This document shows positions 17,275-34,566 of a DNA stretch of 64,000 nucleotides, in pieces. Below the pieces are notes generated by a model. That model saw nothing but the letters and a program-made list of their open reading frames with translations. It had not been told where the DNA came from and ran no database searches. Origin of the DNA: Anaeromyxobacter oryzae (lineage in GTDB: Bacteria; Myxococcota; Myxococcia; Myxococcales; Anaeromyxobacteraceae); contig NZ_AP025591.1 of the NCBI RefSeq assembly GCF_023169945.1, positions 4,832,481 through 4,896,480 on the forward strand, given 5' to 3'. The position numbers and the translations under genes are program-made. Numbering within the stretch: position 1 is the stretch's first letter; every line of letters starts with the position of its first letter.

Positions 17275-17412
17275 GGCGTTCCGTTGCCCCGTCGCCTCCG
17301 GGACGGCCTCGCTCAGGTGGGTGCCTCATGGATGCGCCGCAGGGCGGCTGCGATCGGGAGGTGGTCTCGATCGCCTCCGGTCTCGACGAGCGAGGTCGTG
17401 CCCGTGAACGGC

Positions 17413-17446
17413 GAGGGCCGCCCCCTCGAGAGAGAGGGCGGCCCTC
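17413..17446 (-). terminator. Hairpin terminator after the octaheme-type array gene
   Basis: Arms GAGGGCCGCCC and GGGCGGCCCTC, 11 bp, with a 12-nt loop, about 40 nt beyond the stop on the minus strand. No U-run on that strand. Confidence 0.55.
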
Positions 17447-17486
17447 GGTTTCGACGGCGGGCGATCGGCGCGCGCGTCGCCACGGC

Positions 17487-20060: not shown

Positions 20061-20077
20061 GTGTCTTCCTCCACGGA

Positions 20078-20133
20078 GCCGCGCAGCGCGCGGCCCTGTG
20101 ATTTCTGGACGCCGGGTGCCCAAGCCCTGCGTC
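20078..20133 (-). ncRNA. Conserved two-hairpin 5' leader (array gene at 20060)
   Basis: On the transcript, hairpin 1 (20133..20108) has arms GACGCAGGG and CCCGGCGTC with loop CTTGGGCA. Hairpin 2 (20094..20078) is built on GCCGCGC/GCGCGGC and sits just before the RBS. Upstream the transcript reads CATCGGCTCGGCCACGG, conserved in all five leaders. Possibly cis-regulatory RNA; a DNA-level role is not excluded. Confidence 0.6.
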
Positions 20134-20175
20134 CGCGTGTACCCGTGGCCGAGCCGATGAGCCGGGCGCCGTTGA

Positions 20176-20189
20176 GCAACCCGCGTACC
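20176..20189 (-). promoter_or_regulatory. Sigma-54 (-24/-12) promoter of the octaheme-type array gene
   Basis: Coding strand GGTACGCGGGTTGC: GG and GC separated by exactly 10 nt, matching the consensus GGCACG-N4-TTGC. The GC is 116 nt from the ATG, so the leader is about 105 nt. Confidence 0.72.
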
Positions 20190-20252
20190 GGTGCGATTGC
20201 AGCCAAATGCCCGGGATTGCGGTGGGATTCCGTCTGGGCGCGGTGCTGCGAT

Positions 20253-20320
20253 GGGGGAAATGACGCGCGATGTTGCGGCGTTCATCGACGTTCACGCGCG
20301 AACGCGTCGGGTGAACGCTC
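20253..20320. promoter_or_regulatory. Candidate enhancer block, array gene at 20060
   Basis: Begins GGGGGAAATGACGCGCG and contains a perfect 6-bp inverted repeat GTTCAC (20290) / GTGAAC (20311). It sits about 60 bp upstream of the -24 element, like the related blocks at 23761, 27368 and 30970. Probable binding region of an NtrC-type activator. Confidence 0.5.
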
Positions 20321-20665
20321 GGTGCGCACGCGATGGGCGCGGGTCACGTCGAGCGGGCCAAGGCCGCGTCGCCGTGAGCGAATGCTCCGGTCGGTCGCCG
20401 CAGGACCGTGCTTGCCTCTCGGGGATGCGGTACTGCGCGCCGGCGCGCGAGCGGCTGCCTTGGCGAGGTGGCGCACGGCTCCCGACCGCTCAGCAGGTGG
20501 TCTTCATTGCGCAATTCGAGCGGGCGACGCTTCACGCGTGCGCGCTCGTGCGGAGGCCGGGCGAGAGTGGGTGAAGCCGCGCGATTAACGTTAGCGCGGC
20601 CGACGTCGCCGCCTCGCGCTAGCTGCCGCGCGCGTGCGTTCCGAGCGACCCGAGAAAGCGCGAGA
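20321..20665. other. Intergenic stretch without recognised genes
   Basis: About 345 bp between the enhancer block and the next terminator. A pair of TTCACGCG / GGGTGAAGCCGCG motifs near 20531-20580 looks related to the enhancer half-sites. Nothing else recognised. Confidence 0.4.
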
Positions 20666-20693
20666 GCCCTGCGAGCGGAAGCGCTCGCAGGGC
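20666..20693 (-). terminator. Hairpin terminator after the MtrC-like gene at 20752
   Basis: Arms GCCCTGCGAGCG and CGCTCGCAGGGC, 12 bp, 4-nt loop, about 60 nt past the stop; on the minus strand it is followed by a T-containing stretch. Confidence 0.65.
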
Positions 20694-20751
20694 CCTCGGT
20701 CATTCCGGTGAGCGAGACGGGACGGAGCCCGCCCGTGCTCGGGTCAGCTGA

Positions 20752-23589
20752 CTACTTCAGGACGCCGCCCGTCTTCAGGTCCGCGGTCGTCTTGTCGAGC
20801 ACCGTGGTCGTGGTGGCCGGCGCGACCGGGACCAGGCGGTACCCGAAGTCGGCCGTGTGCTGGTCGAACGCGTTCAGACCAGCCGCATCGTCCTTGTTGA
20901 TGAACTTCGCGCGGTGGCAGCCGCCGCAGGCCCTGGAGCCGGCGCCGGTGACGACGGACGGGATCCCGGAGATCGCGCGGGTCTCGCCCTTGAGCACGTC
21001 CTTGGACGCCGACTGGATGCCCGGCAGCGACTTGCTCTCGGGCTGAGCCTCGTACGTGCCCGGGTTGTGGCACGACTCGCAGCTCAGGGTCGTGAAGTTC
21101 GGGTACGTCGAGCCGATGTGGGCCTCGTACTCGAACGCCTGGACCGTGTTCGCGAAGTCCACGTTCTGGATGTCGAACGCCTGGAACGAGTGGATCGAGT
21201 GGACGTACGAGTCGATGGACCGGGACTGCATCTCGAGGTGCCCGCCGCCGCTACGGACGGTGTGGCACAGGCGGCACGCGACCACGCTGCCGCCGCGGTT
21301 CTTCTCGGAGGCGGCCTCGTGGAACGTCGTGGCGAGCGCGTCGTGGCACTTGTTGCACTTCGCCACGCTGACGATCGGCGCGTAGAACGAGTCGGCGAAG
21401 GCGTTCGCGGCGAGGTCGAACGTCCGCGTGACCGAGTCGAGCGCCATCTCGGGCCCGGTCAGCGCCGGGCTCGGGGCGGCGGCGGGGAGGACTGCCCACG
21501 TGGTCGTCGAGGTCATCCACGGACGGATGCCGATCTCGACGCGGCGGATGTCGCCGTTGCCGAGCTGCGTCGCCCAGGCGGTCGAGGCCGCGTCGAGGTC
21601 AACCGTGATGGACCAGGTACCGGTGGACTGGCCATTCGTGACGAGCGTGACGCCCGTCTTGGTGGCGCCGCCGAGGTCGAGCGAGAAGTAGCTCTGCGCC
21701 CAGTCCTTGGTGTCGAACGCGTACGGCCCGATCATCAGCTGCGGGTCGATGTTCGAGATCGAGTAGCCGTCGGTCGTCGTGCCCGTGATGGTGAAGTTGA
21801 TCGTGAGCGCCTTGGTGGTCGAGTCGAAGGTGGCGCTCGTGATCGCCGCCTTGAAGATGTCCGCCCACCGCGCGCCGCTCGCCGTGTAGATCTTGGCGTC
21901 GTAGCCGGTGTGGAGATCCGAGAACAGCGGGGCCTTCGTCACGCCGTCCCACGGCGCGACCCAGGTCGCGTTGTGGCACTCGTTGCACTGCATCTCGGTG
22001 ATCGTCGGGGGAGTCGCACCATCGGACTCCAGCAGGACGCCCTTCACCCAATCGATGTTGTGGTAGGCAGGCGCGAGCTTCGGCGCGCGCTTCGGATCCT
22101 CGCCGTTCACGCCGACGTAGAGGTGGCAGGTCTTGCAGGTGTTCCCCGTGAAGTTCGCGTCGGTGAGGATCCGATCGAGCTTGCCGGCGTGGCAGGTCGC
22201 GCAGTTCCCCATCGACTGCGGGTAGAGGAACTCCTTCGCGTGCGAGATGTGCGTATCGGACATGGTGTTGGCCGTGTACGCGTACGTCTCCTCGTCCGCA
22301 GGCGACCAGCAGAGCTCGCCGCCGCAGACGGCGCCCTGGGCCTCGAGGGCGGCGAGCCGCGCCGGATCCTCGTAGGCCATCGCCAGGTTGAAGTCCACGC
22401 CGCCGCGCTGATCGGTGTGGCACGCCTTGCAGGCGACGAAGTCGGACAGGCCGGCAACCTTCGCCTGGCGGTAGCCGTGCTTCGCGTACTCCTTGCCGTG
22501 GCAGGCCTCGCACGCCGAGACGTTCGCGGTCGAGGTCCAGGGGATCGTCCCGAACTGCTGCGCGACGCTGACGGTGTTGTCGGGCAGGAAGTAGTGGCCC
22601 CCCGGCGGGACGACCGACTTGTCGGCGAAGTAGAAGTAGAAGAACCCGTTCTCGGTGGCGGACTTCGGGTCGAACTTGACGCCCGTCGTGACCGACTTGA
22701 ACTGGCCGTTCGCGACGAACGTGGCGGCCTTGAGGGTGGCCGCGGTCGCCGTCTCGAACCCGCTCGTGCCGGTGTACCGGGTGAGCGAGAGACGCTTCTG
22801 GCCGAGGGCGGCGTAGTCCGCGGCGGTGAGGGCGACGCCGCTCTTCTTGAGCGTGAACAGGACGGTCACGTCGAAGCCGGCCGTCGCGTTCGGGGCGCTC
22901 GTGACCGAGTCGATGGTCGCGGTGAGCTTCGTCGCGTCGACGTAGGTGTTGTAGATGTTCTGGTGGAGCGACTTGCCCTCGCCCGCGTGGCAGGTGTTGC
23001 ACTGCTCGACGGGCTGGGTGGTCGTGCCGGCCAGCACGGGCTTGTGGCAACTGTCGCACGCGACGGCGAGGCCCGCGCCCTGGAGCGCAGCACCGTGGCA
23101 CGCGCGGCAATCCATGTCGTGCTTGTAGTACGCCGGGGCGTGCTCGGCCGGGCTGGCGTAGTTCGGGTGGCCGGTGGAGCCCGACACCGTGTCGAACTGC
23201 GCGACGAGGTACTTGTCGGCCTTGCCGGTGACATCGCACGCGGCGTCGCCGGAGCAGTCGCCCGCCCAGCCCCAGAACCGGTAGGTGGGGTCGGTCACGG
23301 TCGCGGTCAGCGTGACCTTCGCGTCATACGCGAACGTCGCGGAGCACAGCGCGTGGCCGCCGGCGCCGCAGTCGATGCCTGCGGGGTTGGACGTCACGTA
23401 CCCGCCCTTGATCGCGAGGCCGGGGTTCGCGGCTGCACCGTTGATGGACTGGCCGTTCTGGACGACGACCGTGAACGTGCCCTCGGAGACGCCAGGGTCA
23501 CTGCCGGTGCCGGAGCTCTTGGCTCCGCCCGAGCAGCCTGCTGCGGTCACTGCGCCCAAGAGCGCAAGTGCCAACGAGACACGACGCAT
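20752..23589 (-). CDS. OmcA/MtrC-family decaheme cytochrome with diheme N-module (12 CXXCH)
   Basis: 945 residues, lipobox AAGCSGG (Cys19). N-module as in its neighbours: InlB-like domain with FWGWAGDCSGD, GHPNY, CRACHGAALQGAGLAVAC, CDSCH. Then a decaheme part with ten CXXCH arranged as two pentaheme groups separated by beta-rich sequence, the OmcA/MtrC plan. Diagnostic stretches are HISHAKEFLYPQSMGNCATC and GGGHLEMQSRSIDSYVHSIH. Such proteins sit on the outer surface and reduce Fe(III)/Mn(IV) or flavins. It is the only array member with this exact MtrC-type pattern; those at 24252 and 31489 form a separate pair. Monocistronic with its own sigma-54 promoter. Confidence 0.9.
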   Translation of the reverse strand: MRRVSLALALLGAVTAAGCSGGAKSSGTGSDPGVSEGTFTVVVQNGQSINGAAANPGLAIKGGYVTSNPAGIDCGAGGHALCSATFAYDAKVTLTATVTDPTYRFWGWAGDCSGDAACDVTGKADKYLVAQFDTVSGSTGHPNYASPAEHAPAYYKHDMDCRACHGAALQGAGLAVACDSCHKPVLAGTTTQPVEQCNTCHAGEGKSLHQNIYNTYVDATKLTATIDSVTSAPNATAGFDVTVLFTLKKSGVALTAADYAALGQKRLSLTRYTGTSGFETATAATLKAATFVANGQFKSVTTGVKFDPKSATENGFFYFYFADKSVVPPGGHYFLPDNTVSVAQQFGTIPWTSTANVSACEACHGKEYAKHGYRQAKVAGLSDFVACKACHTDQRGGVDFNLAMAYEDPARLAALEAQGAVCGGELCWSPADEETYAYTANTMSDTHISHAKEFLYPQSMGNCATCHAGKLDRILTDANFTGNTCKTCHLYVGVNGEDPKRAPKLAPAYHNIDWVKGVLLESDGATPPTITEMQCNECHNATWVAPWDGVTKAPLFSDLHTGYDAKIYTASGARWADIFKAAITSATFDSTTKALTINFTITGTTTDGYSISNIDPQLMIGPYAFDTKDWAQSYFSLDLGGATKTGVTLVTNGQSTGTWSITVDLDAASTAWATQLGNGDIRRVEIGIRPWMTSTTTWAVLPAAAPSPALTGPEMALDSVTRTFDLAANAFADSFYAPIVSVAKCNKCHDALATTFHEAASEKNRGGSVVACRLCHTVRSGGGHLEMQSRSIDSYVHSIHSFQAFDIQNVDFANTVQAFEYEAHIGSTYPNFTTLSCESCHNPGTYEAQPESKSLPGIQSASKDVLKGETRAISGIPSVVTGAGSRACGGCHRAKFINKDDAAGLNAFDQHTADFGYRLVPVAPATTTTVLDKTTADLKTGGVLK

Positions 23590-23606
23590 GTGTATCCCCT
23601 CGAGAT

Positions 23607-23661
23607 GGTCGCGCATGCGCGACCTGTTCTGTTCTAGACGCCGGGTGCCCAGCCCTGCGTC
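23607..23661 (-). ncRNA. Conserved two-hairpin 5' leader (array gene at 23589)
   Basis: Hairpin 1 (23661..23637): GACGCAGGG / CCCGGCGTC, loop CTGGGCA (one nt shorter than at 20060). Hairpin 2 (23624..23607) is a perfect 18-nt palindrome GGTCGCGC/GCGCGACC around AT. Preceded by CATTGGCACGGCCACG and followed by GAGG as RBS. Confidence 0.62.
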
Positions 23662-23703
23662 AAGATGGCTGCGTGGCCGTGCCAATGACCGGGCGGGCTC
23701 TCC

Positions 23704-23717
23704 GCAAGACTCGTACC
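23704..23717 (-). promoter_or_regulatory. Sigma-54 promoter of the MtrC-like gene
   Basis: Coding strand GGTACGAGTCTTGC, GG-N10-GC, 115 nt before the ATG. Confidence 0.75.
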
Positions 23718-23760
23718 CGACGGCCTCACACGGAGATTGCGTATTTGTGCGACTCCGGAT

Positions 23761-23826
23761 GGGGGAAAACACGCAGGGTTGCGACGGATTGGCATTCACC
23801 CACGGTGATTGACGCTGGGTGCGACA
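23761..23826. promoter_or_regulatory. Candidate enhancer block, array gene at 23589
   Basis: GGGGGAAAACACGCAGGGTT, then TTCACCCACGGTGATTGAC and GGGTGCGACAG. A degenerate form of the perfect inverted repeat at 27375..27415; 44 bp upstream of the -24 element. Confidence 0.52.
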
Positions 23827-24175
23827 GCCAGATGCTCGAGCCGCCGCCGCTCGAGCGGAAGTCTTTGTGAAGCTTGGCCATTCCGCGCGTGGGACGATAC
23901 CCGGTAGGACGCCGCCGCGCGTGCCCGATTGCGCGCGTCAAACCGGCGAAATCGAGCCTCGAGCATGCGGCGGAGCGCGCGCCGGGAATTCTAGGTGTCC
24001 ATACGGTCGGATGGAGCCTCGGTCGGGCTCGCCGGCGAAAGCTCACCGCGTACGCAAACGGGGCGTGGGAGTTTTCAACCGCGATCTGGGGCATCCCACT
24101 CAGGGCGACACGTAGTCGCGCGGCCGATGGTGCCTGGTCGATGACGCGCGCCGAAGCAGCTCGCGCCAATGAAAA
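23827..24175. other. Intergenic stretch with a distal conserved element
   Basis: No gene. At 24071..24113 the text TTTTCAACCGCGATCTGGGG and CATCCCACTCAGGGCGACA matches elements at 27666 and 31275, and less well one at 34957 before the omcS-like gene. Its core is a TCCCAC/GGGCGA-type half-site pair. Confidence 0.45.
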
Positions 24176-24236
24176 GGGGCGGGCCCGAAGGCCCGCCCCG
24201 TGAAGCTTCGGCTACCGGGAGCGCGGACGCTCCCGG
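24176..24236 (-). terminator. Double hairpin terminator after the OmcA-like gene at 24252
   Basis: First hairpin reached (24236..24215): CCGGGAGCG / CGCTCCCGG. Second (24199..24176): GGGGCGGGCC / GGCCCGCCCC with a TTCG loop, followed on the minus strand by TTTT. The same tandem pair follows the gene at 31489, with compensatory changes in the first stem. Confidence 0.85.
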
Positions 24237-24251
24237 CAGGCCGTCAGGCTG

Positions 24252-27173
24252 CTAGTGCACGTCGCCGATCGGCATCATCTTGCCGGCACCGTGGCAGTCG
24301 AGGCAGGTCTCGTTGAGCGTCACGAGGCCGTTGCTGCGAGGCTGGTAGATCTGGCCGAGGTTCTGCTCCATGTGGGCCACGGCGGTGGTGCTGTCGTGGC
24401 ACGAGAAGCACGCCGCGGTGATCGGGGAGATCACGAGGGTCGTGCCCGCCGCAGGGGTGATGGCCCCCGTGGCCTGCGCGTAGGAGAAGCCGGAGCCGTA
24501 GCTCACGCCCAGGGTGACGTACGGCGACGTCCCGGCGCTGGCCGAGATGGTCCCGGTGGCCACCGTGCTCGGGAGCAGGCTCCCGAGGGCAGCGGCGGAG
24601 GCGGGGGCCGTGAAGTCGTACGTGCCGGCCTCGTGGCACTGCTGGCAGTTGTTGAGCTGGCCCGGGTAGGCGACCTCCCAGAACATGGCGCCCGCCGTCG
24701 CCTCCCACGTGAACGGCGTCGTGCGCATGCGCGCGGCGTGGATGCCGTGGATGACGTCCTTCGAGTTCACCGCCCAGCCACTATTGACCCGGTTGGTGTT
24801 GTGGCAGAACGCGCAGGTGGGACCGTCGTTCCGCTGGCCGACGTGGAAGTTCGGGGCGACGCCGAGGAACCCGTGGCACGCGTTGCACTTGTCGTTGCTC
24901 ACGATGGCGCGCCGCGGGGCGTAGCCGTTCGCCGTCTTCCACGCGTTCGCGATCGGGACGATGAGGCCGCCCGACTTCGTCGTCGTGTTGTACGGGTACG
25001 CGGCGAGGTCGATCTGCGTGATCGGCTGGTTCGCCGGCAGGTCGTACGCGTACCCGAGGCCGCAGGTGAGGATCGCGGACGACGGGAGGACGCGCTGACC
25101 GGTGAGCGTGACGACGTAGTAGCCCGCGTCCGCGCCCGTGCCGTCGGCCATCGAGCCGGCGCCGGTGCCGTTCCGGATGGCCTTGATGCTGACGCCACCG
25201 GCGACGTTGAAGTCGACCGGCGCGGCGATGCCGTCCTGCGGCACGGAGTACGCGCAGTAGGCCTGCGAGGAGCCGACGAAGCCGGTCATCAGCTCGCCGC
25301 CCGGCGCGTTGAAGACCACCGGCGCGCCGTCCTTGAGGAAGCGGAACGTCAGGGTCGGACGCAGCACGCCATTCGCGTCGGCGACGGCCGCGACGCTCTT
25401 CAGGTCGTACGTGATGCGCGAGGCCCCGGGGGGCAGGGCGCCGACGGCGGCGATGTCCGCCGCGTTCGTCCTGGAATTCCCGCCGGTGGGCGTGTCGAGG
25501 ATGTTGTTCGGATCCTTCGCCACGACGGGGACGTGGGCCGCAGCGACGTCAGCAGCGCTGTGGCAGTTCGTGCAGTCCGCCTCGACCGCCGGCGTGCCGC
25601 CCGTGTTGTGGATCGTGAAGTCCACGGTGTCGTGGCAGGAGCCGCAGGCGGCGCGGCTGGGGCGGGTCTTCCACTGGTTGCCCTGCGCCGTGTTGGGGTG
25701 GCAGATGCCGCAGTTCCGGAGATCCTGCGGGTACGTCGCCTCGCCGAGGCCGTCGTACACGGTCGGCGCGCAAGCGTTCGTGACCGTGCAGGTGCAGGGA
25801 GCAGCCACGGTGCACTGGGTCATCGCGGCGCCGGGCGCGCCGTACTGCCAGCCGACGGTCTGCGTGCCCGTCGTGACCTTCAGGAGCATCTCCTTGGCAG
25901 CGTGGATGCGGTGGATGAAGACGGACGAGGCCGCGATGGGGGTGCCGGCCGGCGCCGTGCCCGGGTCGCTGTTGGTCCGCTCGGTGGTCCGGGCCTGGTT
26001 GTGGCAGATGTTGCAGAACGGCCCGGCGATGCGGCCCGAGCTGTGGAACGAGGCCACGTTGCCCTCCGGCTTGAAGCCGGCGTGGCACGCGTTGCAGCCC
26101 GCGACCGAGACGATCTCGCGCTTGCCAGCCGCGCCGCTCGCGTCAGGGACGAAGTTGAACTCCTGGTTCACGGCCCGGAACGCCTTCCCGAGCGTCGAGG
26201 CGCTGCCGTTGCTCACCTGGATCCAGATGGTGTGCGTGCTCGAGAGCTTCGCCGTGTCCACCCGGTTCAGCGCCGGGGAGGTGTAGGTGTAGTCACCCAG
26301 GGCGTTCTGGACGAGCGTGGTCGGCGCGGCCGTCGTGCTGATCGCAGGGAAGTTGATCGTGCTGGGGTTGCCCGTGGCCGCGGCCGGCGTGAGGACGGCG
26401 TACGGCAGGGTTCCGGTGGCATCCGAGTCGACGCGGGCGAGCGCGAACCGACCGCCGGTCGGCAGGGCGATGGAGCTGCCCTGGTCGTCCTTCACCGTGA
26501 AGTTGAGCGTGAGGACCTTCGTGGCGCTGTCGATCGCGGCGCTGGTCACGTTGACGTTGAGGCCCAGGGAGACGGGAGGCGTCGGCAGCGGCCACACGTG
26601 GCAGGCGCTGCAGGAGACCGCGAGGCCCGCGCCCTGCAGGCTCGCGCCGTGGCAGCTCGTGCAGGCGAGGGCGCCAGGGACGCCGTTCACGAAGTCGGCG
26701 TACTTCGGCCCGTGCACGGCGCCGTCGGTCCAGTTCGGGTGACCGGTGCGCTGGCCCGCGAACATGGTGAGGACGTACTTGTCGGCGTTGCCCTCGAGCG
26801 AGCAGGTCCCGTCGCCCTGGCAGTCGCCGGCCCAGCCGAGGAACTGGAAGGGAAGATTGAACGCCGGGTCGGTCCCGGCCGCCGTCGCGGTCAGCACGAC
26901 GGTCGTCCCCGCGGGGAACTGAGCGGAGCACGTCGCGTGCGGCGCGATGCCGCAATCGATGCCGGCGGGGGCCGAGGTGACGTAGCCGCCCGTGATCGCG
27001 AGCGACGGATTGGCCGGCGCGCCATTGAGGGCCTGGCCGTTCTGGACGGTCACCGTGATGGTGCCATCCTGCACGCCCTTGCCGCTGCCGGAGTCGGAGC
27101 TCTTGGCTCCACCCGAGCACCCTGCTGCGGTCACCGCGCCAACGAGCGCAAGTGCCAACGAGATACGACGCAT
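24252..27173 (-). CDS. OmcA/MtrC-family decaheme cytochrome with diheme N-module (12 CXXCH)
   Basis: 973 residues, lipobox AAGCSGG (Cys19), the shared InlB-like domain (FLGWAGDCQGDGTC), GHPNWTDG, CTSCHGASLQGAGLAVSC and CSACH. The decaheme part carries ten CXXCH in two groups: around residues 330-530 (CNACHAGFKP, FIHRIHAAKEML, TYPQDLRNCGICH, CGSCHDTVDF) and 770-970 (CNACHGFLG, CAFCHNTNR, DVIHGIHAAR, CQQCHEAG, CFSCHD, CLDCHG). This is the OmcA/MtrC decaheme plan. Closest relative in the window is the gene at 31489, with similar heme order, spacing and 3' double terminator, so the two are duplicates. Expected to be an outer-surface terminal reductase. Confidence 0.9.
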   Translation of the reverse strand: MRRISLALALVGAVTAAGCSGGAKSSDSGSGKGVQDGTITVTVQNGQALNGAPANPSLAITGGYVTSAPAGIDCGIAPHATCSAQFPAGTTVVLTATAAGTDPAFNLPFQFLGWAGDCQGDGTCSLEGNADKYVLTMFAGQRTGHPNWTDGAVHGPKYADFVNGVPGALACTSCHGASLQGAGLAVSCSACHVWPLPTPPVSLGLNVNVTSAAIDSATKVLTLNFTVKDDQGSSIALPTGGRFALARVDSDATGTLPYAVLTPAAATGNPSTINFPAISTTAAPTTLVQNALGDYTYTSPALNRVDTAKLSSTHTIWIQVSNGSASTLGKAFRAVNQEFNFVPDASGAAGKREIVSVAGCNACHAGFKPEGNVASFHSSGRIAGPFCNICHNQARTTERTNSDPGTAPAGTPIAASSVFIHRIHAAKEMLLKVTTGTQTVGWQYGAPGAAMTQCTVAAPCTCTVTNACAPTVYDGLGEATYPQDLRNCGICHPNTAQGNQWKTRPSRAACGSCHDTVDFTIHNTGGTPAVEADCTNCHSAADVAAAHVPVVAKDPNNILDTPTGGNSRTNAADIAAVGALPPGASRITYDLKSVAAVADANGVLRPTLTFRFLKDGAPVVFNAPGGELMTGFVGSSQAYCAYSVPQDGIAAPVDFNVAGGVSIKAIRNGTGAGSMADGTGADAGYYVVTLTGQRVLPSSAILTCGLGYAYDLPANQPITQIDLAAYPYNTTTKSGGLIVPIANAWKTANGYAPRRAIVSNDKCNACHGFLGVAPNFHVGQRNDGPTCAFCHNTNRVNSGWAVNSKDVIHGIHAARMRTTPFTWEATAGAMFWEVAYPGQLNNCQQCHEAGTYDFTAPASAAALGSLLPSTVATGTISASAGTSPYVTLGVSYGSGFSYAQATGAITPAAGTTLVISPITAACFSCHDSTTAVAHMEQNLGQIYQPRSNGLVTLNETCLDCHGAGKMMPIGDVH

Positions 27174-27189
27174 GTGTACGCCTCCAAGT

Positions 27190-27245
27190 GGTCGCGCACG
27201 CGCGACCGTGTTCACTTTTGGACGCCGGGTGCCCAGCCCTGCGTC
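27190..27245 (-). ncRNA. Conserved two-hairpin 5' leader (array gene at 27173)
   Basis: Hairpin 1 (27245..27221): GACGCAGGG / CCCGGCGTC, loop CTGGGCA. Hairpin 2 (27207..27190): GGTCGCGC / GCGCGACC around GT. The upstream CATCGGCACGGCCA is conserved; the RBS GGAGG follows hairpin 2. Confidence 0.62.
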
Positions 27246-27290
27246 CGCATGTATCTCTGGCCGTGCCGATGAACCGCGGGGCGCCTGTCC

Positions 27291-27304
27291 GCAAGAGTCG
27301 TACC
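27291..27304 (-). promoter_or_regulatory. Sigma-54 promoter of the OmcA-like gene at 27173
   Basis: Coding strand GGTACGACTCTTGC, GG-N10-GC, 118 nt before the ATG. Confidence 0.76.
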
Positions 27305-27367
27305 GGGTGGGCTCGCGCCGAACCGGCCGAGATCCCACGCGTTCGTGACACGCTGTGTGGCGTCGGT

Positions 27368-27435
27368 GGGCGAAATCACTCAGGGTGCGACCAATCGTCC
27401 GTCACCCTGAGTGATGCAGGGCGCGTCGACCAAAC
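27368..27435. promoter_or_regulatory. Enhancer block with a perfect 13-bp inverted repeat
   Basis: ATCACTCAGGGTG (27375..27387) and CACCCTGAGTGAT (27403..27415) are exact reverse complements separated by 15 nt. Each left-arm type unit continues into GTGCGAC. About 70 bp upstream of the -24 element, a usual place for sigma-54 activator sites. The clearest version of the motif in the window. Confidence 0.65.
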
Positions 27436-27798
27436 CGCAATCACTCCGAGCCAAGCGGCCGCCGATATATGTCTTTCCCAGCCAATGGCCGTCCAGCCGC
27501 CGCTCAGGCGTGTGCCGGCGCGCGCGCGGCAATTTGGCGTGGGGCAATCAGCAAGAGTGCGGCAGGGTGCGCAATATCCGAATTGGTGTAATCGCTGCGC
27601 GGGGATGGAGCACCGGTCACCCGCCCCAGACGGCGATCTCGGCCTAAGCAGGCGAGGCGATGCGTGATTTCAACCGCAAGCTGGGTCATCGCACACAGTG
27701 CGACAGCGAGCCGCGCGACAAACTGTGGTGGCGCCGCGTCGAAGGCGCAGGCGCAATTCCTGAGGTCCGGCGCGGGAAGAGCGCGCCAGAAACAAGAA
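27436..27798. other. Intergenic stretch with a distal conserved element
   Basis: No gene. Contains ATCACTCCGAG at about 27450 (half-site). At 27666..27708 it has the distal element, with the perfect inverted repeat TCGCAC-ACA-GTGCGA at 27689..27703. Confidence 0.45.
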
Positions 27799-27824
27799 GG
27801 CCCCCGCGGCGGACCGCGGGGGCC
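27799..27824 (-). terminator. Intrinsic terminator after the gene at 27848
   Basis: Arms GGCCCCCGCGG / CCGCGGGGGCC, 11 bp, loop TCCG, followed on the minus strand by TTCTTGTTTC, 24 nt beyond the stop. Confidence 0.8.
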
Positions 27825-27847
27825 GGACTACTGACAGCGCTCAGCGA

Positions 27848-30784
27848 CTACGGACGGTTCAGCGTGGCGTCGGTCGACGAGGCAGTGACCGTGAACGACG
27901 GCGTGCCCCCGAGGTCCTTGATCGAGTCGTAGACCAGCTGCATCACGTAGTACTCGTTGTGCGCCCAACCGCCCGGATCCTTGTTCATCCAGTGGAGGTT
28001 GTACCCGGCCTTCATGGCGTTCAGGTCGAGCTTGGCGCCCGTCGCCGAGCACCCGGTGGCCTTCTTGACCAGCACGTAGCCATAGACGCTGCCGTCGTAG
28101 CAGATGCCGGTCGCGTCCGCGCCGTTCGCCGCCTGGAAGGCGGTGAGGTTCGCCTGCGCATAGGCGTCGAGGGCGGCGAGGAGCTCCGCCTTCATGCTGG
28201 CGTACTCCTCCTCCTTCGGCGCGAGGGCGTAGTTACCGGCGTGGCAGCCGGCGCAGTACGTGAAGTCGACGCCGAACTCGTGCTTCGTGGCCTTCGGCTG
28301 GTGGCAGCCGGTACACTCGGCGCCGTGCGGCGAGCCGTGCGGACCGGGGGCGTTGCCGTTCGTGCCGGACTTCCAGAACGCCGGGAACGCCGTGTAGCTC
28401 TTGCCATCGTACTCGTACCAGGACTTGGCACGGGTCCCCATGACCGTGGCGGCCGCGCCGAGGTAGTGCGGGTTCACGAGCGTGGCGCTGAACGTCCCAG
28501 AGACCAGCCCCTTGGCGTCGACGCTCGCCTTGTTCTCGCGGGCCGAGTGGCACGTCCCGCAGACCGCGAAGCTCTTCGGGAGGTTGGCGGCGTCGAAGGA
28601 CACCTCGCCACCGGCGCCGTTCTTCTGCGGCGGGAAGTAGACCTTGGCGACGTCGGTGCGGATGCCCTTCATGTCCGTGCCGTTGTACGTGTGGCACACG
28701 GAGCACTGGAACGCCGCGATCTTGTTGGCGTCGGTGATGACCGCGCTCGTGAGGGCAGCCGGCATCGTGGAGATGTACGCCTGGAAGCCGCCCTTGCCGC
28801 CGTGGCACTGGTAGCAGGCGCCCGAGGTGAAGCCCATCGGAGGCAGCGACTCGAGCGTCGTGGCGTTCGAGGCGCCGTGGTAGATGATGGCCGCGTACTT
28901 GGAGGCATCCTCGGCCGCGCCGAAGTGGCCGTTGAACGCGCGGTTGCCGTTCGGCGATGCGGTGAAGCCCTTCGCGACGAGGCCGGCGTTCAGGTCGGCG
29001 ATGGCGTCGTACATGACCTCGATCGCGTAGCGCGGGTTGTGCGCCCAGGCGCCCTCGTCGTTGGTGGCGATGAGGAAGTTGTACGAGGCGCGGAGCAGGC
29101 GGGCGGTGAAGTTGGGCGAGTTCGTCTCGCCCGCGTACCAGGTACCGCCGGCGGCCGTGCACGTGGCCGAGTCATGGTATCCATCGCCGAGCGAGCAGGA
29201 CGCGGTGGCGCAGATGCCGTCGCCGGCGATGCCGCCGTTCGCGCCGTCGTCCGCGTAGAACCGGTTCTCGCCGTCGAAGCAGACCTGCGTGCCAGTGACG
29301 TTCTTCGCGTAAGACGTGATCGTCGCGAGGAGCTTCGCGCGGAGACCGTTGATCTCGACCTTAACCGACCCCGGCACGCCGTCGCCGTCGATATCGCCCT
29401 CGAAGCCGAACTGGCGGGACTCCTCGAGCTCGGCGAACGTCCGCACCGGAAGCCCGGTGAGCTCGTCGTTGTGGCAGCCACCGCAACGCGCGAGGATCTC
29501 GGAATCCTTCGGGAGCTCGCCGGTGTGCGGGTTGTGGCAGGAGACGCAGCTGTTCAGGCCACCGTGCTCGTTCCGGCCCGTGTAGTTGTTCCTTTCGGCG
29601 GCGGTGTCCGACATCTGGGCACCCTTCCAGGTGCCGGCGGCGGCCGTACAATCGGCCTGCGTGTACTTGCCCGCAACCGAGCACGCGATGGAGTACTCGA
29701 AGTAGCTGCCCGCCTCCTCACCGTACAGCGTGGACGCGGCCGGGAGATAGTGCGCGCGGACGAGCTTGTTGTTGCCCGCCCCCGCGGTTCCGAGCGAGGC
29801 GTCGAGGTCCGTCACGCCGGTGAGCTGGGCATTGAGCTTGGCGACCTCGTACCCCGGACGCGCGCCGTCGTGGCACTGGGCGCAGAGCGCGGTGCTGGCG
29901 TCCAGGGTGAGGGTGTTGTTCACCGGGAACGACGTGAAGACGTGCTGCTTCGTCCAGGTGCCGGCGCCAGCGATCGGCTCCGTCACGGGGTTGTGGCAGG
30001 ACGAGCAGAGCATCGTGACGCCCGGATCGGTCGTCGGGAAGGTCGTGTTGTCCAGCGTCGGCTTCGGCATCGTCGCGCTGAGCACCTGCGACGCCGTGCC
30101 GTCGGCGCCGGTGAAGTCGCGGAACGCCGAGCCGTTGTGGCAGCGCGCGCAGTCGCCCGAGTTGTGCGAGCCGAAGGCGCCGCCGAGCACGAAGTGTCCG
30201 CCGAGCGGCCAGCTGTGGCAGGTGGCGCAGGAGATCGCGATGCCCTGGCCCTGGAGGTTGGCGCCGTGGCAGCTCGTGCAGTCCAGAGCGCCGGCCACGC
30301 CGAGGGAGTAGTTGAGGTAAGCCGGCCCGTGGGCGGCCGGATCCGTGAAGTTGCCGTGACCCGTCCGCTGGCCCGCGAACATCACGACGATGTACTTGTC
30401 GGACGCGCCGGTGAGCGAGCAGGCGCCCTCGCCCTGGCAGTCGCCCGCCCAGCCGAGGAATAGGTAAGCCTGGCTGTTCGCCGGATCAGTGCCGACCGGC
30501 GTCGCCGTGAGGCTGACAGCGGTGTCGGCCGGGAACGTGGCCGAGCACAGCGCATGACCGGCGATGCCGCAGTCGATGCCTGCGGGCGTCGAGGTCACGT
30601 AACCGCCCTGGATCGCGAGCCCCGGGTTCGCCGGAGCACCGTTGATGGCCTGCCCGTTCTGGACGACGACCGTGAACGAGCCGCCGGGAACGCCCTTGCC
30701 GCTGCCGTCGGAGCTCTTCGCCCCACCGGAGCACGCTGCGGTCACTGCGCCCGTGAGCGCCAGTGCCAATGAGATACGACGCAT
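27848..30784 (-). CDS. Multiheme surface lipoprotein with diheme N-module and a different ten-heme core
   Basis: 978 residues, lipobox TAACSGG (Cys18), the same InlB-like/diheme module (FLGWAGDCQGEGAC, CTSCHGANLQGQGIAISC, CATCH). The ten core hemes (CARCH, CSSCH, CAQCH, CVSCHNPH, CGGCH, CYQCH, CSVCH, CGTCH, CTGCH, CAGCH) do not follow the OmcA/MtrC order. The core has two copies of a heme-free block ending WAHNxxY...YDxIxDL (about 630 and 950), and Cys pairs in ADCTAAAGTW and ATCTAAGGTW. This resembles the polyheme lipoproteins of Geobacter, such as the OmcB type, in heme number and tail, but I cannot place it firmly. Likely outer-surface. Own sigma-54 promoter. Confidence 0.85.
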   Translation of the reverse strand: MRRISLALALTGAVTAACSGGAKSSDGSGKGVPGGSFTVVVQNGQAINGAPANPGLAIQGGYVTSTPAGIDCGIAGHALCSATFPADTAVSLTATPVGTDPANSQAYLFLGWAGDCQGEGACSLTGASDKYIVVMFAGQRTGHGNFTDPAAHGPAYLNYSLGVAGALDCTSCHGANLQGQGIAISCATCHSWPLGGHFVLGGAFGSHNSGDCARCHNGSAFRDFTGADGTASQVLSATMPKPTLDNTTFPTTDPGVTMLCSSCHNPVTEPIAGAGTWTKQHVFTSFPVNNTLTLDASTALCAQCHDGARPGYEVAKLNAQLTGVTDLDASLGTAGAGNNKLVRAHYLPAASTLYGEEAGSYFEYSIACSVAGKYTQADCTAAAGTWKGAQMSDTAAERNNYTGRNEHGGLNSCVSCHNPHTGELPKDSEILARCGGCHNDELTGLPVRTFAELEESRQFGFEGDIDGDGVPGSVKVEINGLRAKLLATITSYAKNVTGTQVCFDGENRFYADDGANGGIAGDGICATASCSLGDGYHDSATCTAAGGTWYAGETNSPNFTARLLRASYNFLIATNDEGAWAHNPRYAIEVMYDAIADLNAGLVAKGFTASPNGNRAFNGHFGAAEDASKYAAIIYHGASNATTLESLPPMGFTSGACYQCHGGKGGFQAYISTMPAALTSAVITDANKIAAFQCSVCHTYNGTDMKGIRTDVAKVYFPPQKNGAGGEVSFDAANLPKSFAVCGTCHSARENKASVDAKGLVSGTFSATLVNPHYLGAAATVMGTRAKSWYEYDGKSYTAFPAFWKSGTNGNAPGPHGSPHGAECTGCHQPKATKHEFGVDFTYCAGCHAGNYALAPKEEEYASMKAELLAALDAYAQANLTAFQAANGADATGICYDGSVYGYVLVKKATGCSATGAKLDLNAMKAGYNLHWMNKDPGGWAHNEYYVMQLVYDSIKDLGGTPSFTVTASSTDATLNRP

Positions 30785-30801
30785 TTTCTTAGCCTCCAGA
30801 T

Positions 30802-30857
30802 GGCCGCGCACGCGCGACCTGTTCCGTTCCAGACGCCGGGTGCCCAAGCCCTGCGTC
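30802..30857 (-). ncRNA. Conserved two-hairpin 5' leader (array gene at 30784)
   Basis: Hairpin 1 (30857..30832): GACGCAGGG / CCCGGCGTC, loop CTTGGGCA. Hairpin 2 (30819..30802): GGTCGCGC / GCGCGGCC, where GACC has become GGCC, keeping a G-U pair. The upstream CATCGGCTTGGCCACGG is identical in core to the copy at 34428. Confidence 0.62.
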
Positions 30858-30903
30858 GAGATGTCTTGCCGTGGCCAAGCCGATGATCCGGCGGGGCTAC
30901 TCC

Positions 30904-30917
30904 GCAAGAGTCGTACC
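30904..30917 (-). promoter_or_regulatory. Sigma-54 promoter of the array gene at 30784
   Basis: Coding strand GGTACGACTCTTGC, identical to the promoter at 27291; 120 nt before the ATG. Confidence 0.76.
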
Positions 30918-30969
30918 CGGCGCCCTGAACGCGAACGTACCGAGATCCGCAGGTTTTGCTGACGGTGTT

Positions 30970-31034
30970 GGGGGAAATCACTCACGGTGCGACAGGTTGT
31001 CCTCGACCGAGAGTGATGCGGCCGGGGTGCGACG
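30970..31034. promoter_or_regulatory. Candidate enhancer block, array gene at 30784
   Basis: ATCACTCACGGTG (30977..30989) faces CCGAGAGTGAT (near 31006..31016), an imperfect version of the inverted repeat at 27375, followed by GGGTGCGAC. About 55 bp upstream of the -24 element. Confidence 0.58.
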
Positions 31035-31416
31035 AAATGTCGTCGTAACCGTTGCGGCGCAAAGCAACTGACCGCCACATGTGGCGTTTCCGCTCGCGTA
31101 GGGAAATCCGTGCGGTTGGCCATGGGTGCGCCGATTGGCGCGCGGCAAAATGGGCGCAATCTTCCCGCGTGCGACCCGGAATCTCTCGAGCGTGAATAGC
31201 GCTGTCGATACGGCCGGATCGGACCACTGACCTGCCGGAGCAGCGCGCGATTCCTTCGACGAGCGAGCGATGGCGCGTTTTGAACCGGGAATGGGTTATC
31301 GCACCCAATGCGACATCGCGCCGCGCGGCAGATGTTCGCGTCTGTGGCGGCTTCTGCGGGCTCGAATGCGTCCTGACCGGGGTGCTCGCCGGCGAGCGCG
31401 CGCCAAGAAACGAAAA
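31035..31416. other. Intergenic stretch with a distal conserved element
   Basis: No gene. The distal element GTTTTGAACCGGGAATGGGT with the near-perfect inverted repeat TCGCAC-CCA-ATGCGA lies at 31277..31313, in the same order as at 24071 and 27666. Confidence 0.45.
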
Positions 31417-31476
31417 GGGCGGGCCCGAAGGCCCGCCCCGTGATTCCTCGGCTACCGGGAGCTCGGAAGCTCCCGG
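31417..31476 (-). terminator. Double hairpin terminator after the OmcA-like gene at 31489
   Basis: First hairpin (31476..31455): CCGGGAGCT / AGCTCCCGG. Second (31438..31417): GGGCGGGCC / GGCCCGCCC with a TTCG loop, then TTTTCG on the minus strand. The first stem differs from its mate at 24215 by matched changes on both arms, so pairing is kept. Confidence 0.85.
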
Positions 31477-31488
31477 CAGGCCGTCAGG

Positions 31489-34428
31489 CTACTGCTTGTG
31501 CATCACCGAGATGGAGAACGTCGCGCCCGCCCCGTGGCAGCCGAGGCACAGCTCGGCGCTGGTGGCCGAGATGTTGGCGGTGCTGCGCGGCTGGTAGATC
31601 TGGCCGCCCTTCGCGGTGATGTGGGCCTTCGTCGTGCTGTCGTCGTGGCAGCCGAGGCAGGCCGCCGCGATCGGCGAGGTCACGAGCGTCGTCGCGGCCG
31701 GCGCGGTGGTCACGCCGGTCGAGCTGTTGAAGCTGAACCCGGCGCCGTAGACCGTCCCGGCCGTGACGTACGGAGACAGCGACGGGCCGGCAGCCGGCGT
31801 GCCGGTGGCGGCGGTGCTGAACAGCATGTTGTTCGCCGACGTCGTCGCGCTGAAGTCATAGCCGTTCGGCGTGTGGCAGGCCTCGCAGTTGTTGTGCTGG
31901 CCGGGGAGCTCCACGCCCCAGTAGCCGTCGGTGGCGGAGACCGCGTGCCAGCCGAACGGAACGGTGCGGACGCCCGTGCGGGTCGAGGTCGTCCCGTCCG
32001 GCAGCGTCACGCCGGCGATGGTGCCGGCGTGGAGGCCGTGGATGAAGTCCTTCGCGTTGCCCGCCCAGCCGTTGTTGTTCTGGTTGGGGTTGTGGCACCA
32101 GATGCAGGACTCGCCGTCGTTCCGGTTGCCGGCGTGGAACGTCGGCTCCGCGCCGAGGGCGGCGTGGCAGTTCTTGCACTTGGCGTTGTCGACGATGGTG
32201 CGGCGGCCGGTGAAGCCGGTCGCGACCATCTTCTGGTTCGGCGCCACGTTGACGAGGCCGCCGAGCTTGACGTTGCAGGGCGCGGCTGCCGTGCAGCTCA
32301 CGTTGTTGTACTTGCCGGCGGTGAGCGCCATGTCGGTCGCCGCGAGGGTCCCCGTCAGGTCGACCTCGGTGAGCGGCTGCGTGGAGGTAAGACCGTAGGT
32401 GTAGCCGACGCCGCCGGTCAGCATCTTCACGCTCGAGAGGTTGGACGCGCCGGTGATCGTGAGCGTGTAGTACTGCGACGCGTCAGGACCGCTCATCGTC
32501 GTGGGGACCGCCGTGGCCGAGTATGCCGACACGCCGGCGAGGCAGGCCGCCTTCAGGTAGGCGCTGGCCGACCCGTTGAAGTCCACCGGGGCCGAGATGC
32601 CGTCCTCCGGCACCGCGAACACGAAGTAGATGCTCGGCGCGCCGACGAAGCCCGTGAAGAGCTCGCCGGTGCCCGCGGCCGGCGTCGCCGCCGCCTCGGG
32701 GCAGTTGTCGATGGCAGCCGGGGTGCCGTTCTTGAGGAGCCGGAACGTCATCGTGGGCTTGCCGTTCGAGTCGAGGCCAACCGACTTGATCTCGTAGGTG
32801 ATCGCCGTGGCGCCGAGCAGCGAGACGTCCGCGCCCGCCGCCGGGAGGTAGCCCGCGTTCGTGTTGTTGTTGCAGCCCGCGGCGTTGTTGGCTGCGAGGC
32901 AGTTCGTCGCATCCGGCGGCGCGACCGGCACGTGCGCCGTGTCGATGGAGGCAGCGGTGTGGCAGCCGGCGCAGGCGGAATCATCCGACTGCGGGCCGCC
33001 GGCGTGCCCCGTGCCCGCCACGAAGTCGATGGCGTAGTGGCAGGAGCCGCACGCGGCCGCCGTCGGCCGCGTCTTGTACTGATCGCCCTGGGCCGCGCCG
33101 GCGTGGCACTGCTTGCAGTTGCGGACGTCCTGGGGGTACGTCGCGGTGGTGTTGTCGAAGATGGCGGTCGTGGGCATGCTCAGCTGCTCGGCCGCGTGGA
33201 TCCGGTGCACGAACACCATCGCGTTCGCGATCGGATTGCTCGTCCGGGCAGGGTTGTGGCAGACGTCGCAGAAGTTCGCATCGACGCGCGCGCTGCCGTG
33301 GAACCCGTTGGCGACGCTGACGTCCGGCTTGAAGCCGGCGTGGCACTTGGAGCAGCCCGCGTTGGAGGCGACCTCGCGCTTCGTGGTGCTCGCCGTGCCC
33401 GTCGAGCCGGTGAAGTTGTACTGGAAGTTCACGGCCTTGAAGCCCTTGACGTCATTCGCGTCGGCGAGGTCGGTCTGCCGCGTCGCCTGGATCCAGAGGG
33501 TGTGCGTGCTGGCGAGGTTCGTGGTGGAGATCTTCGGCATCACCGCGCTGGTGAACGCGTACGTGCCGGCGTTCGTGCCGACCTCGGTGAGCGTACCGGC
33601 GGTCGAGGTCGCGCCAACGGCGGGCATCGTGAGCGTGCCGGGGCTGCCGGAGGCCGGGGTCAGGACCGCGTAGGGGAGGACCTGGCCGTCCGCGGCGGTG
33701 TCGATCCGCGCGAGCGCGACGCGCAGCGACATGAGGGCGTTCTGCGAGTAGACGCCCTTGATGTCGACCGGCTTGCCCTGGTCGTCCTTGAGGGAGAAGT
33801 TGACCGTGAAGGTCTGCGCGGTCTGGTCCACCGAGACGCCGGTGACCGTGACCTGGAGGCCCGTCGTGGAGGCCGGGGCGTTGTGGCACTTGCTGCAGCT
33901 CGGCGCGATGCCCGCGCCCTGCAGCTGCGCGCCGTGGCAGGTCGCGCAGTTGTAGGTGCTCGAGGTCATCGCCTCGGGCCCGTGCAGCGCCGGGTCCGAC
34001 CAGTTCGGGTGGCCCGTGCGGGTGCCGCCGAACATGGCGAGGACGTACTTCGAGGAGTTGCCCGAGAGCGAGCAGGTGGTCTCGCCGGAGCAGTCGCCGG
34101 CCCACCCGAGGAACAGGTAGGGCAGATTGACGCTGGCGTCCGTCCCGGACGGCGTCGCCGTCAGGACGACCGGGGTGTTCACGTCGAAGTCGAAGGAGCA
34201 GACCTGCGTGGTGCCGACGCCGCAGTCGATGCCGGCGGGGCTGGAGGTCACCTTGCCGCCGACGATCGCGAGCCCGGCGTTGCCGTTCTGACCGTTCTGG
34301 ACGGTCACGGTGAACGTCTTCCCGACGGTGCCCTGGGCCCCGCCGCTGGAGCTCGACTTGGCTCCGCCCCCGCAGCCTGTTGCAGCCATCGCGCCCGAGA
34401 GCGCGAGTGCCAACGAGATACGACGCAT
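31489..34428 (-). CDS. OmcA/MtrC-family decaheme cytochrome with diheme N-module (12 CXXCH), duplicate of 24252..27173
   Basis: 979 residues, lipobox ATGCGGG (Cys19). N-module with FLGWAGDCSGETTC, GHPNWSD, CATCHGAQLQGAGIAPSC and CSKCH. The decaheme core matches the gene at 24252 in heme order: CSKCHAGFKP, CDVCHNPAR, FVHRIHAAE, TYPQDVRNCKQC, CGSCH, CAGCH, then CKNCH, CIWCHN, DFIHGLHAG, CEACH, CLGCH, CLGCH. Other shared stretches such as GELFTGFVGAP show common origin, but divergence is substantial. Expected surface reductase. It is divergent from the omcS-like gene, with both promoters of the sigma-54 type in the shared intergenic region. Confidence 0.9.
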   Translation of the reverse strand: MRRISLALALSGAMAATGCGGGAKSSSSGGAQGTVGKTFTVTVQNGQNGNAGLAIVGGKVTSSPAGIDCGVGTTQVCSFDFDVNTPVVLTATPSGTDASVNLPYLFLGWAGDCSGETTCSLSGNSSKYVLAMFGGTRTGHPNWSDPALHGPEAMTSSTYNCATCHGAQLQGAGIAPSCSKCHNAPASTTGLQVTVTGVSVDQTAQTFTVNFSLKDDQGKPVDIKGVYSQNALMSLRVALARIDTAADGQVLPYAVLTPASGSPGTLTMPAVGATSTAGTLTEVGTNAGTYAFTSAVMPKISTTNLASTHTLWIQATRQTDLADANDVKGFKAVNFQYNFTGSTGTASTTKREVASNAGCSKCHAGFKPDVSVANGFHGSARVDANFCDVCHNPARTSNPIANAMVFVHRIHAAEQLSMPTTAIFDNTTATYPQDVRNCKQCHAGAAQGDQYKTRPTAAACGSCHYAIDFVAGTGHAGGPQSDDSACAGCHTAASIDTAHVPVAPPDATNCLAANNAAGCNNNTNAGYLPAAGADVSLLGATAITYEIKSVGLDSNGKPTMTFRLLKNGTPAAIDNCPEAAATPAAGTGELFTGFVGAPSIYFVFAVPEDGISAPVDFNGSASAYLKAACLAGVSAYSATAVPTTMSGPDASQYYTLTITGASNLSSVKMLTGGVGYTYGLTSTQPLTEVDLTGTLAATDMALTAGKYNNVSCTAAAPCNVKLGGLVNVAPNQKMVATGFTGRRTIVDNAKCKNCHAALGAEPTFHAGNRNDGESCIWCHNPNQNNNGWAGNAKDFIHGLHAGTIAGVTLPDGTTSTRTGVRTVPFGWHAVSATDGYWGVELPGQHNNCEACHTPNGYDFSATTSANNMLFSTAATGTPAAGPSLSPYVTAGTVYGAGFSFNSSTGVTTAPAATTLVTSPIAAACLGCHDDSTTKAHITAKGGQIYQPRSTANISATSAELCLGCHGAGATFSISVMHKQ

Positions 34429-34445
34429 GTTTGTTGCCTCCAGGT

Positions 34446-34506
34446 GGCCGCGCACGCGCGAGCCGTGTTCTTCTTGTTCCGACGCAGGGAGCCCAGGCCC
34501 TGCGTC
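34446..34506 (-). ncRNA. Conserved two-hairpin 5' leader (array gene at 34428)
   Basis: Hairpin 1 (34506..34481): GACGCAGGG / CCCTGCGTC, here a perfect 9-bp stem where the other four copies have an A-G mismatch; loop CCTGGGCT. Hairpin 2 (34464..34446): GGCTCGCGC / GCGCGGCC around GT. The upstream CATCGGCTTGGCCACGGG is conserved. Confidence 0.62.
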
Positions 34507-34552
34507 CGCCAATATCCCGTGGCCAAGCCGATGGAACTTTTGTCGCACCTGA

Positions 34553-34566
34553 GCAACATCCGTACC
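34553..34566 (-). promoter_or_regulatory. Sigma-54 promoter of the OmcA-like gene at 34428
   Basis: Coding strand GGTACGGATGTTGC, GG-N10-GC, 125 nt before the ATG. Confidence 0.72.

Follow-up and report, generated by a model that had tools for sequence, protein, structure and literature searches.

This study focused on a leader of about 100 nucleotides (nt) that is common, by direct reading and by alignment, to five neighbouring multiheme cytochrome genes of the soil bacterium Anaeromyxobacter oryzae, all on the minus strand. They lie within a stretch of 64,000 nt (the window; GCF_023169945.1, contig NZ_AP025591.1, positions 4,832,481-4,896,480 of the forward strand), and coordinates below are those of the window. 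Gene 1 (17487..20060, ATG at 20060) specifies an octaheme-type multiheme cytochrome lipoprotein that resembles the octaheme tetrathionate-reductase family but scores under its cut-off (TIGR04315-like, 258.5 bits against a cut-off of 375). Gene 2 (20752..23589, ATG at 23589) encodes an OmcA/MtrC-like cytochrome, also below the family cut-off (TIGR03507, 115.3 bits against 209.3), and genes 3 (24252..27173, ATG at 27173) and 5 (31489..34428, ATG at 34428) encode OmcA/MtrC family decaheme cytochromes with scores above it (322.9 and 312.6 bits, respectively). Gene 4 (27848..30784, ATG at 30784) specifies a multiheme cytochrome with the Pfam domains PF22113, PF14522, PF14537 and PF09699; it received no OmcA/MtrC call, and in the curated family search matched only the paired-CXXCH model. 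Similarity among the five proteins lies mainly in the first ~190 residues, and overall they are 25-33% identical to the gene 1 protein. Together with four leaders from relatives, described below, nine copies are now available.

The leaders share a fixed order of parts: a 5' motif, CATYGGCNNGGCCA, then hairpin 1 with an apical GGGC loop, and finally hairpin 2, which adjoins the ribosome-binding site (RBS). An earlier note on this DNA had described such an order between promoter and RBS, and all of its parts were found in all five copies, on the minus strand. Copy 1 begins with a -24/-12 site for sigma-54, GGTACGCGGGTTGC (20176..20189), followed by the 5' motif CATCGGCTCGGCCA (20146..20159), hairpin 1 (20108..20133) and hairpin 2 (20077..20095). 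The corresponding elements of copy 2 are GGTACGAGTCTTGC (23704..23717), CATTGGCACGGCCA (23674..23687), and hairpins at 23637..23661 and 23607..23624. Copies 3 and 4 have the same sigma-54 site, GGTACGACTCTTGC (27291..27304 and 30904..30917), with the motifs CATCGGCACGGCCA (27258..27271) and CATCGGCTTGGCCA (30872..30885); hairpin 1 occupies 27221..27245 and 30832..30857, and hairpin 2 occupies 27190..27207 and 30802..30819. Copy 5 carries the site GGTACGGATGTTGC (34553..34566), the same motif as copy 4, CATCGGCTTGGCCA (34520..34533), hairpin 1 at 34481..34506 and hairpin 2 at 34446..34463.

The consensus of sigma-54 promoters is GG-N10-GC, and a sequence of this form, GGTACG-N4-TTGC, lies 30-33 nt upstream of the 5' motif in every copy of the array; with the relatives included it is present in all nine leaders as GGYACG-N4-YTGC. 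One further sigma-54-type site was detected in a scan of the window, at 35040 on the plus strand, while a search for sigma-70-like promoters over positions 17000-35000 (18 kb) found none against 0.8 expected. Taking transcription to start 12 nt after the C of the -12 GC, the distance from start to ATG is 103-113 nt in the five array leaders and 103-123 nt over all nine, so that both hairpins should fall within the RNA. A start downstream of hairpin 1, which would speak against an RNA element, is unlikely given the sigma-54 site upstream of the motif in all five copies, from which the start itself is predicted. On the minus strand, the copy 3 motif (27271) is preceded at a distance of ~105-143 nt by a long inverted repeat, TCACTCAGGGTG...CACCCTGAGTGA, and TCGCACCC half-sites occur also upstream of copies 2, 4 and 5; these are candidate enhancer-binding sites for a sigma-54 activator. 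No exact palindrome is common to the upstream regions.

Terminator-like hairpins occur below genes 3, 4 and 5 (24176-24199, 27799-27824 and 31416-31439), and each gene of the array may therefore be its own transcription unit. The terminator scan gave eight such sites in total, compared with 8.0 in shuffled sequences, and its list has none for genes 1 and 2. The hairpins at 24176-24199 and 31416-31439 (minus strand) are nearly identical; the genes above them, 3 and 5, are the clear pair of OmcA/MtrC paralogues. On the opposite strand, hairpin 2 (23607-23624 and 27188-27209, plus strand) has a T-rich stretch after it and receives a terminator-like score; it might end antisense transcription at the gene start.

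Conservation among the five copies is concentrated in the structured parts. Mean DNA identity is 0.82 for the sigma-54 site, 0.89 for the 5' motif, 0.94 for hairpin 1 and 0.86 for hairpin 2, but only 0.46 and 0.51 for the first and second spacers, and 0.39 for the 200 nt upstream of the promoter. It is 0.79 over the signal-peptide codons and 0.62 over the N-terminal coding region after them. Hairpin 1 has the form GACGC-A-GGG, a loop of CUUGGGCA or CUGGGCA, and CCC-G-GCGUC. In the copy at 34428 (copy 5) an A-T pair replaces A.G, giving a perfect stem of 9 base pairs (bp) with the loop CCUGGGCU, as the earlier note had observed. Its claim that GACC becomes GGCC in a pairing-compatible way was also accurate, but the change is from U-A to U-G, on one side only, and is not compensatory; at the same position, copy 1 shows a two-sided change (to C-G), and copy 5 loses one hairpin-2 pair to a C.C mismatch. 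That the spacers are free to vary is borne out by the identities above and by the distance between the hairpins, which ranges from 9 to 25 nt over the nine leaders. Hairpin 2 is GC-rich with variable loops, and its distance to the Shine-Dalgarno sequence (SD) is held to 5, 5, 4, 4, 7, 5, 5, 3 and 10 nt in the nine leaders (mostly 4-5). This narrow range, next to so variable an inter-hairpin spacer, suggests a role for hairpin 2 at the RBS.

The element was traced in related genomes with two covariance models, R1 built from the five array leaders and R2 from all nine. In its own 6.72-Mb genome, R1 recovers only the five copies, at 93-106 bits, the next best of 150 first-pass candidates scoring 21.5 bits. 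Among 24 genomes of the family Anaeromyxobacteraceae, this search, which the earlier note had proposed, identified three leaders: one in Anaeromyxobacter oryzisoli SG63 (G004, contig NZ_JALCZA010000016.1; 84 bits) and two in genome G010 (G010a and G010b; 33.6 and 33.5 bits). Six more matches were weak, at 19-26 bits. Five of the weak R1 matches were inspected (L036-L039 and L046), and these lack both a sigma-54 site and the start of a cytochrome gene; L040 and L047-L053 were left out of inspection. The ninth leader, in genome G023, was missed by the first R1 search and reached through a protein search with A6, an N-terminal alignment of the eight leader-bearing genes then available; R1 subsequently scored it at 23.3 bits (E 1e-4). 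It has a sigma-54 site, the motif CACCGGCACG, a 12-bp hairpin 1 with the loop CGGGCA and a GC-rich hairpin 2. Ten genes score above 200 bits with A6. The leader is present in nine of them, eight of which had gone into A6 in the first place, and absent from the tenth, G000:6052061. When R2 was run on 18 upstream stretches, including those of lower-scoring A6 matches, only G023 matched strongly (53.7 bits); the next scores were 17.9 and 11.1 bits, the first of these (L101) being from a stretch that spans the end of an upstream gene.

Wider searches added nothing to this set. In 145 genomes of the class, R2 detected its own nine leaders and two weak matches (L198 and L199), both in or against unrelated coding stretches; the filters used were stricter, and weak matches are lost under them. 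Pattern searches over 147 and 195 genomes and a named genome collection gave no further leaders. A pattern allowing two mismatches, applied to 41 genomes, gave counts resembling those of reversed-pattern controls in most of them; the controls were exceeded in G026, G033 and G038, which belong to one other family, but R2 gave no match in these three. With a second pattern there were matches in 79 of 195 genomes, controls being equally frequent, and those accepted were five in G000, two in G010, one in G023 and one of three in G004, the rest being rejected by eye. A pattern match in G065 (L057) had no R2 match at E<=1. Among 56 stretches from the genome collection, only L152, from A. oryzisoli, matches R2 well (92.7 bits), the other 55 being no better than E 0.18. 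A repetitive extragenic palindromic (REP)-like or otherwise scattered repeat was also rejected, as there is no other strong covariance-model copy in the genome and the exact hairpin-1 pattern is confined to the five leaders. The leader is thus found in 4 of the 24 family genomes, which is a lower bound, several of the 24 being incomplete (66-87%). In another genus, a cytochrome leader (L108, G011:C5:432250-433000, minus strand) combines a sigma-54 site with GCACGGCCACGG, 3 nt beyond the -12 element, and its RBS is preceded by a stem resembling hairpin 2, but hairpin 1 was not seen. It is perhaps a decayed relative (R2 E 0.12), and was excluded from all counts.

The leaders from other genera allowed the predicted pairing to be examined, the presence or absence of covariation in orthologous leaders having been set beforehand as the point on which the proposal could fail. 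Two-sided changes are present in other genera. In the nine-leader alignment, 94.4% of 144 cells are paired, and 7 of 17 pairs have changed on both sides (14 cells) with pairing kept; versions in which the structure was slid along the alignment had 0-3 two-sided pairs and 32-50% of cells paired, and shuffles averaged 3.2 two-sided pairs, with 1 in 500 reaching seven. This alignment was fitted with R1 and is biased towards its structure, and it lacks the hairpin-2 partners of G010a, although the sequence of that leader allows a hairpin. With eight leaders, 5 of 17 pairs are two-sided, against 0-1 in slid versions, and in MAFFT alignments made from sequence only, hairpin 1 retains two-sided changes in 2 of 8 pairs (eight leaders) and 4 of 9 pairs (nine leaders). 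Changes of this kind argue for RNA hairpins and against DNA sites, and the secondary structure of both hairpins is maintained by covariation. A hairpin-1-like stem-loop is present in all nine native leaders but in only 7-19 of 1000 dinucleotide shuffles of each, and when folded in isolation hairpin 1 has z-scores of -1.6 to -5.0 relative to shuffles in eight leaders (-0.6 in G004). The GGGC core of its loop, (U/C)GGGC, is kept in all nine, in a single orientation, while the stem is rewritten.

Other pairings were less consistent. A mini-hairpin GGC-NNG-GCC within the 5' motif is broken in three of eight leaders, and pairing between the start of the motif and the SD, predicted by RNAalifold for the five copies, amounts to four weak pairs, of which three are broken in one or two of the five, and is lost when eight leaders are used. 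Pairing of the SD with codons 4-5 can be formed by four pairs in all nine leaders, with one-sided changes only. A third hairpin is also predicted by RNAalifold, within the signal peptide at about codons 8-15 of the nine genes (GCGCTC...GGCGC). Three sequences have two-sided changes at one of its pairs, and coding constraint is a possible explanation.

None of the known RNA families examined provides an identity for the element. In the window, no Rfam model reached its gathering score. Relaxing the threshold to E<=5 for positions 19900-35000 gave five sub-threshold matches, none on a leader, and four related loci gave no match at E<=1. GEMM, mini-ykkC and the other Rfam families were accordingly set aside. 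The earlier note had judged that this is not the GEMM cyclic di-GMP (c-di-GMP) fold, and this agrees with the lack of any match to RF01051 (GEMM-I / c-di-GMP-I) in the window or in the whole genome, the latter being weak evidence as 14 control genomes gave none either. Guanidine-II (mini-ykkC) riboswitches likewise place two short hairpins close to the RBS, but their hallmark is an ACGR loop in both, and here loop 1 is (U/C)GGGC and loop 2 is variable (loops read by eye). Leaders bound by CsrA/RsmA also have a conserved-loop hairpin upstream of the RBS, and post-transcriptional control of a gene set is a feature of that system; its site is GGA in a hairpin loop, however, and the hairpin-1 loops here have GGGC and lack GGA in all nine (again by eye). 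Stabilizing 5' hairpins of the ompA type are similar in being stable GC-rich stems upstream of the RBS, but these lie near the 5' end and are not known to require a particular loop sequence, whereas the present leaders conserve a loop core and a 5' motif. Among the matches listed (titles and abstract openings) from the open-access literature on Anaeromyxobacter, multiheme cytochromes and leader RNAs, the element was not described, although this is weak evidence of its being unpublished. The leader looks like a real, uncatalogued RNA element. The part of the earlier proposal that holds is a conserved RNA leader between promoter and RBS with no GEMM match, while the control of translation or mRNA stability that it suggested is taken up below as a hypothesis; the range of the leader, nine leaders in four genomes of one family, is narrow.

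As to function, the reading we favour, and to which we give an even chance, is that of a structured, sigma-54-transcribed 5' leader that controls translation and/or mRNA lifetime in cis, with the hairpin-1 loop as docking site for a shared trans-acting factor. Transcription from the sigma-54 promoter would place both hairpins in the 5' untranslated RNA, where the leader could act on translation initiation, on message lifetime, or on both. The loop of hairpin 1 would be bound by one partner common to these messages, either an RNA-binding protein or a small RNA (sRNA), and hairpin 2, at the border of the 30S site, would set ribosome access or block decay. Besides their sigma-54 control, cytochrome lipoproteins with differing bodies could in this way be adjusted jointly at the post-transcriptional level. 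The same sigma factor, RpoN, has been linked to cytochrome genes in Geobacter sulfurreducens, and the available part of that description includes no structured leader (PMC2725144).

Several observations weigh against this proposal. Whole leaders of the five copies, folded freely in stretches beginning between 8 nt upstream and 1 nt downstream of the predicted start, are of ordinary stability (z -0.1 to -1.9). There are competing folds, with probabilities of 0.34 for hairpin 1 in copy 4 and 0.02 in G004, and of 0.56 for hairpin 2 in copy 3 and 0.50 in G004, hairpin probabilities being >=0.9 in the other cases. The SD is only slightly more open than in shuffled leaders, lying above the shuffle mean in eight of nine, and 0.11-0.71 of shuffles are equally open or more so. 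The analysis turned up no trans-acting factor or sRNA, although no systematic search for one was made. Finally, the nine leaders come from one family, and five of them are paralogues in one array.

It is possible, though clearly less probable, that the leader is passive, with two stable hairpins shielding the 5' end from decay and keeping the RBS of a GC-rich message open, and with neither regulator nor signal. Hairpin 2 would suit such a role, being merely GC-rich with variable loops and held at a set distance from the SD, and the greater openness of the SD points the same way, as do the early codons CGT, TTG and GCA, which are rare in the gene bodies and expected in an open start region. But a protective hairpin needs neither the GGGC loop core nor the 5' motif, both of which are kept across genera, and the SD effect is weak in individual leaders; on the same shuffle comparison, RBS insulation is weak.

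The start of the coding region deserves attention in its own right. Over the gene bodies of the array, CGT accounts for 8 of 112 Arg codons, TTG for 0 of 268 Leu codons and GCA for 8 of 660 Ala codons, and yet CGT is codon 2 in eight of nine genes (the ninth has Ser) and codon 3 in eight of nine, TTG is codon 6 in six, and GCA is codon 7 in eight. The 5' motif and adjoining spacer, GCCA-CGGGAUAC, are complementary to codons 3-7, GUAUCUCG-U-UGGC. This pairing is suggestive, and is treated here as a lead only. It could serve a portable 5' cassette, made up of the sigma-54 promoter, two-hairpin leader, lipoprotein signal peptide and N-terminal domain and placed before differing cytochrome bodies. 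The leader would then switch translation: its hairpin-1 loop would sense a trans-acting factor or ligand, and the 5' motif would open or close the helix over codons 3-7, so that the cell determines its set of outer-surface cytochromes post-transcriptionally. We consider this elaboration rather unlikely.

A related reading is that the helix closes a junction around both hairpins, the SD and the AUG, and that its release turns translation on. Drawing by hand gives a helix of 10-12 pairs in six of the nine leaders (copies 1, 3 and 5, G004, G010a and G010b), and with 24 nt of coding region included, GCCA:UGGC is predicted at 0.78-0.99 in seven of the eight leaders with GGCCA; the recurrence of rare codons in the paired stretch also fits. 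On the other hand, the full helix could not be drawn in copies 2 and 4 or in G023, and when 75 nt of coding region is included the probability falls to <=0.02 in five of the eight. Random synonymous recoding gives a duplex of equal or greater stability in 6-98% of trials, and there is almost no covariation, with 64.7% of cells paired and one of 12 pairs two-sided on an alignment in which the spacer is poorly aligned. The use of the same codon for identical residues is 0.75 at codons 2-9 compared with 0.65-0.75 elsewhere in the five copies, which is no excess, and 0.75 compared with 0.50-0.70 across genera, which is somewhat higher. A switch of this sort seems unlikely.

A metabolite-binding riboswitch, responding for example to a cyclic dinucleotide, heme or iron, is improbable. 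It would be in keeping with a structured leader before cytochromes of the extracellular-electron-transfer kind, and the available parts of two papers attribute control of Geobacter cytochrome genes to GEMM riboswitches (PMC8683041, PMC12285248). The likeness to those GEMM-I riboswitches, which respond to cyclic GMP-AMP (cGAMP) or to c-di-GMP, extends to the position of a structured leader before multiheme cytochromes for mineral electron transfer. The leaders here differ in having no match to RF01051 or any other Rfam family, and they offer few conserved unpaired positions beyond the 5' motif and one loop, with an inter-hairpin spacer of variable length. Least probable is an origin without RNA, in DNA-level operators or in residual similarity after recent gene duplication, for while the five copies are paralogous and their N-terminal coding regions are also alike (0.62), their spacers and upstream DNA have diverged (0.39-0.51) and their hairpins have not (0.86-0.94), other genera alter stem letters yet keep complementarity, and the non-palindromic loop keeps its orientation.

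Returning to the favoured reading, of a cis-acting leader with a shared partner, leader-RNA control of electron-transfer cytochromes already has its precedent in those Geobacter riboswitches, at least as the accessible text of the two papers describes them (PMC8683041, PMC12285248). A second, unrelated RNA element on like genes in another phylum would point to more than one origin of RNA-level tuning for these proteins, and nine defined leaders are now at hand for testing. Genes of the OmcA/MtrC type are present in 22 of the 24 family genomes (20 over the cut-off) but the leader in only four, so it seems that the leader forms a single 5' module with the lipoprotein signal peptide and the N-terminal domain, and that this module is attached to differing cytochrome bodies. 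The leader tracks this 5' gene module and not one cytochrome family; it follows the N-terminal export module rather than the type of enzyme.

Two other parts of the window contain related genes. A further MtrC/MtrF-like cytochrome of the same cluster, at 13924-16656 on the plus strand, is matched by the N-terminal profile, and has neither a leader nor a sigma-54 site in the stretch scanned. At 42262-48267 (plus strand), a PPIC-type peptidyl-prolyl isomerase, a paired-CXXCH open reading frame (ORF) and an NHL-repeat ORF adjoin one another, some of the ORFs overlapping. Paired CXXCH stretches number 11 in 43998-45998, and another ORF has seven in 45581-47356; the region is perhaps an electron-conduit cluster.

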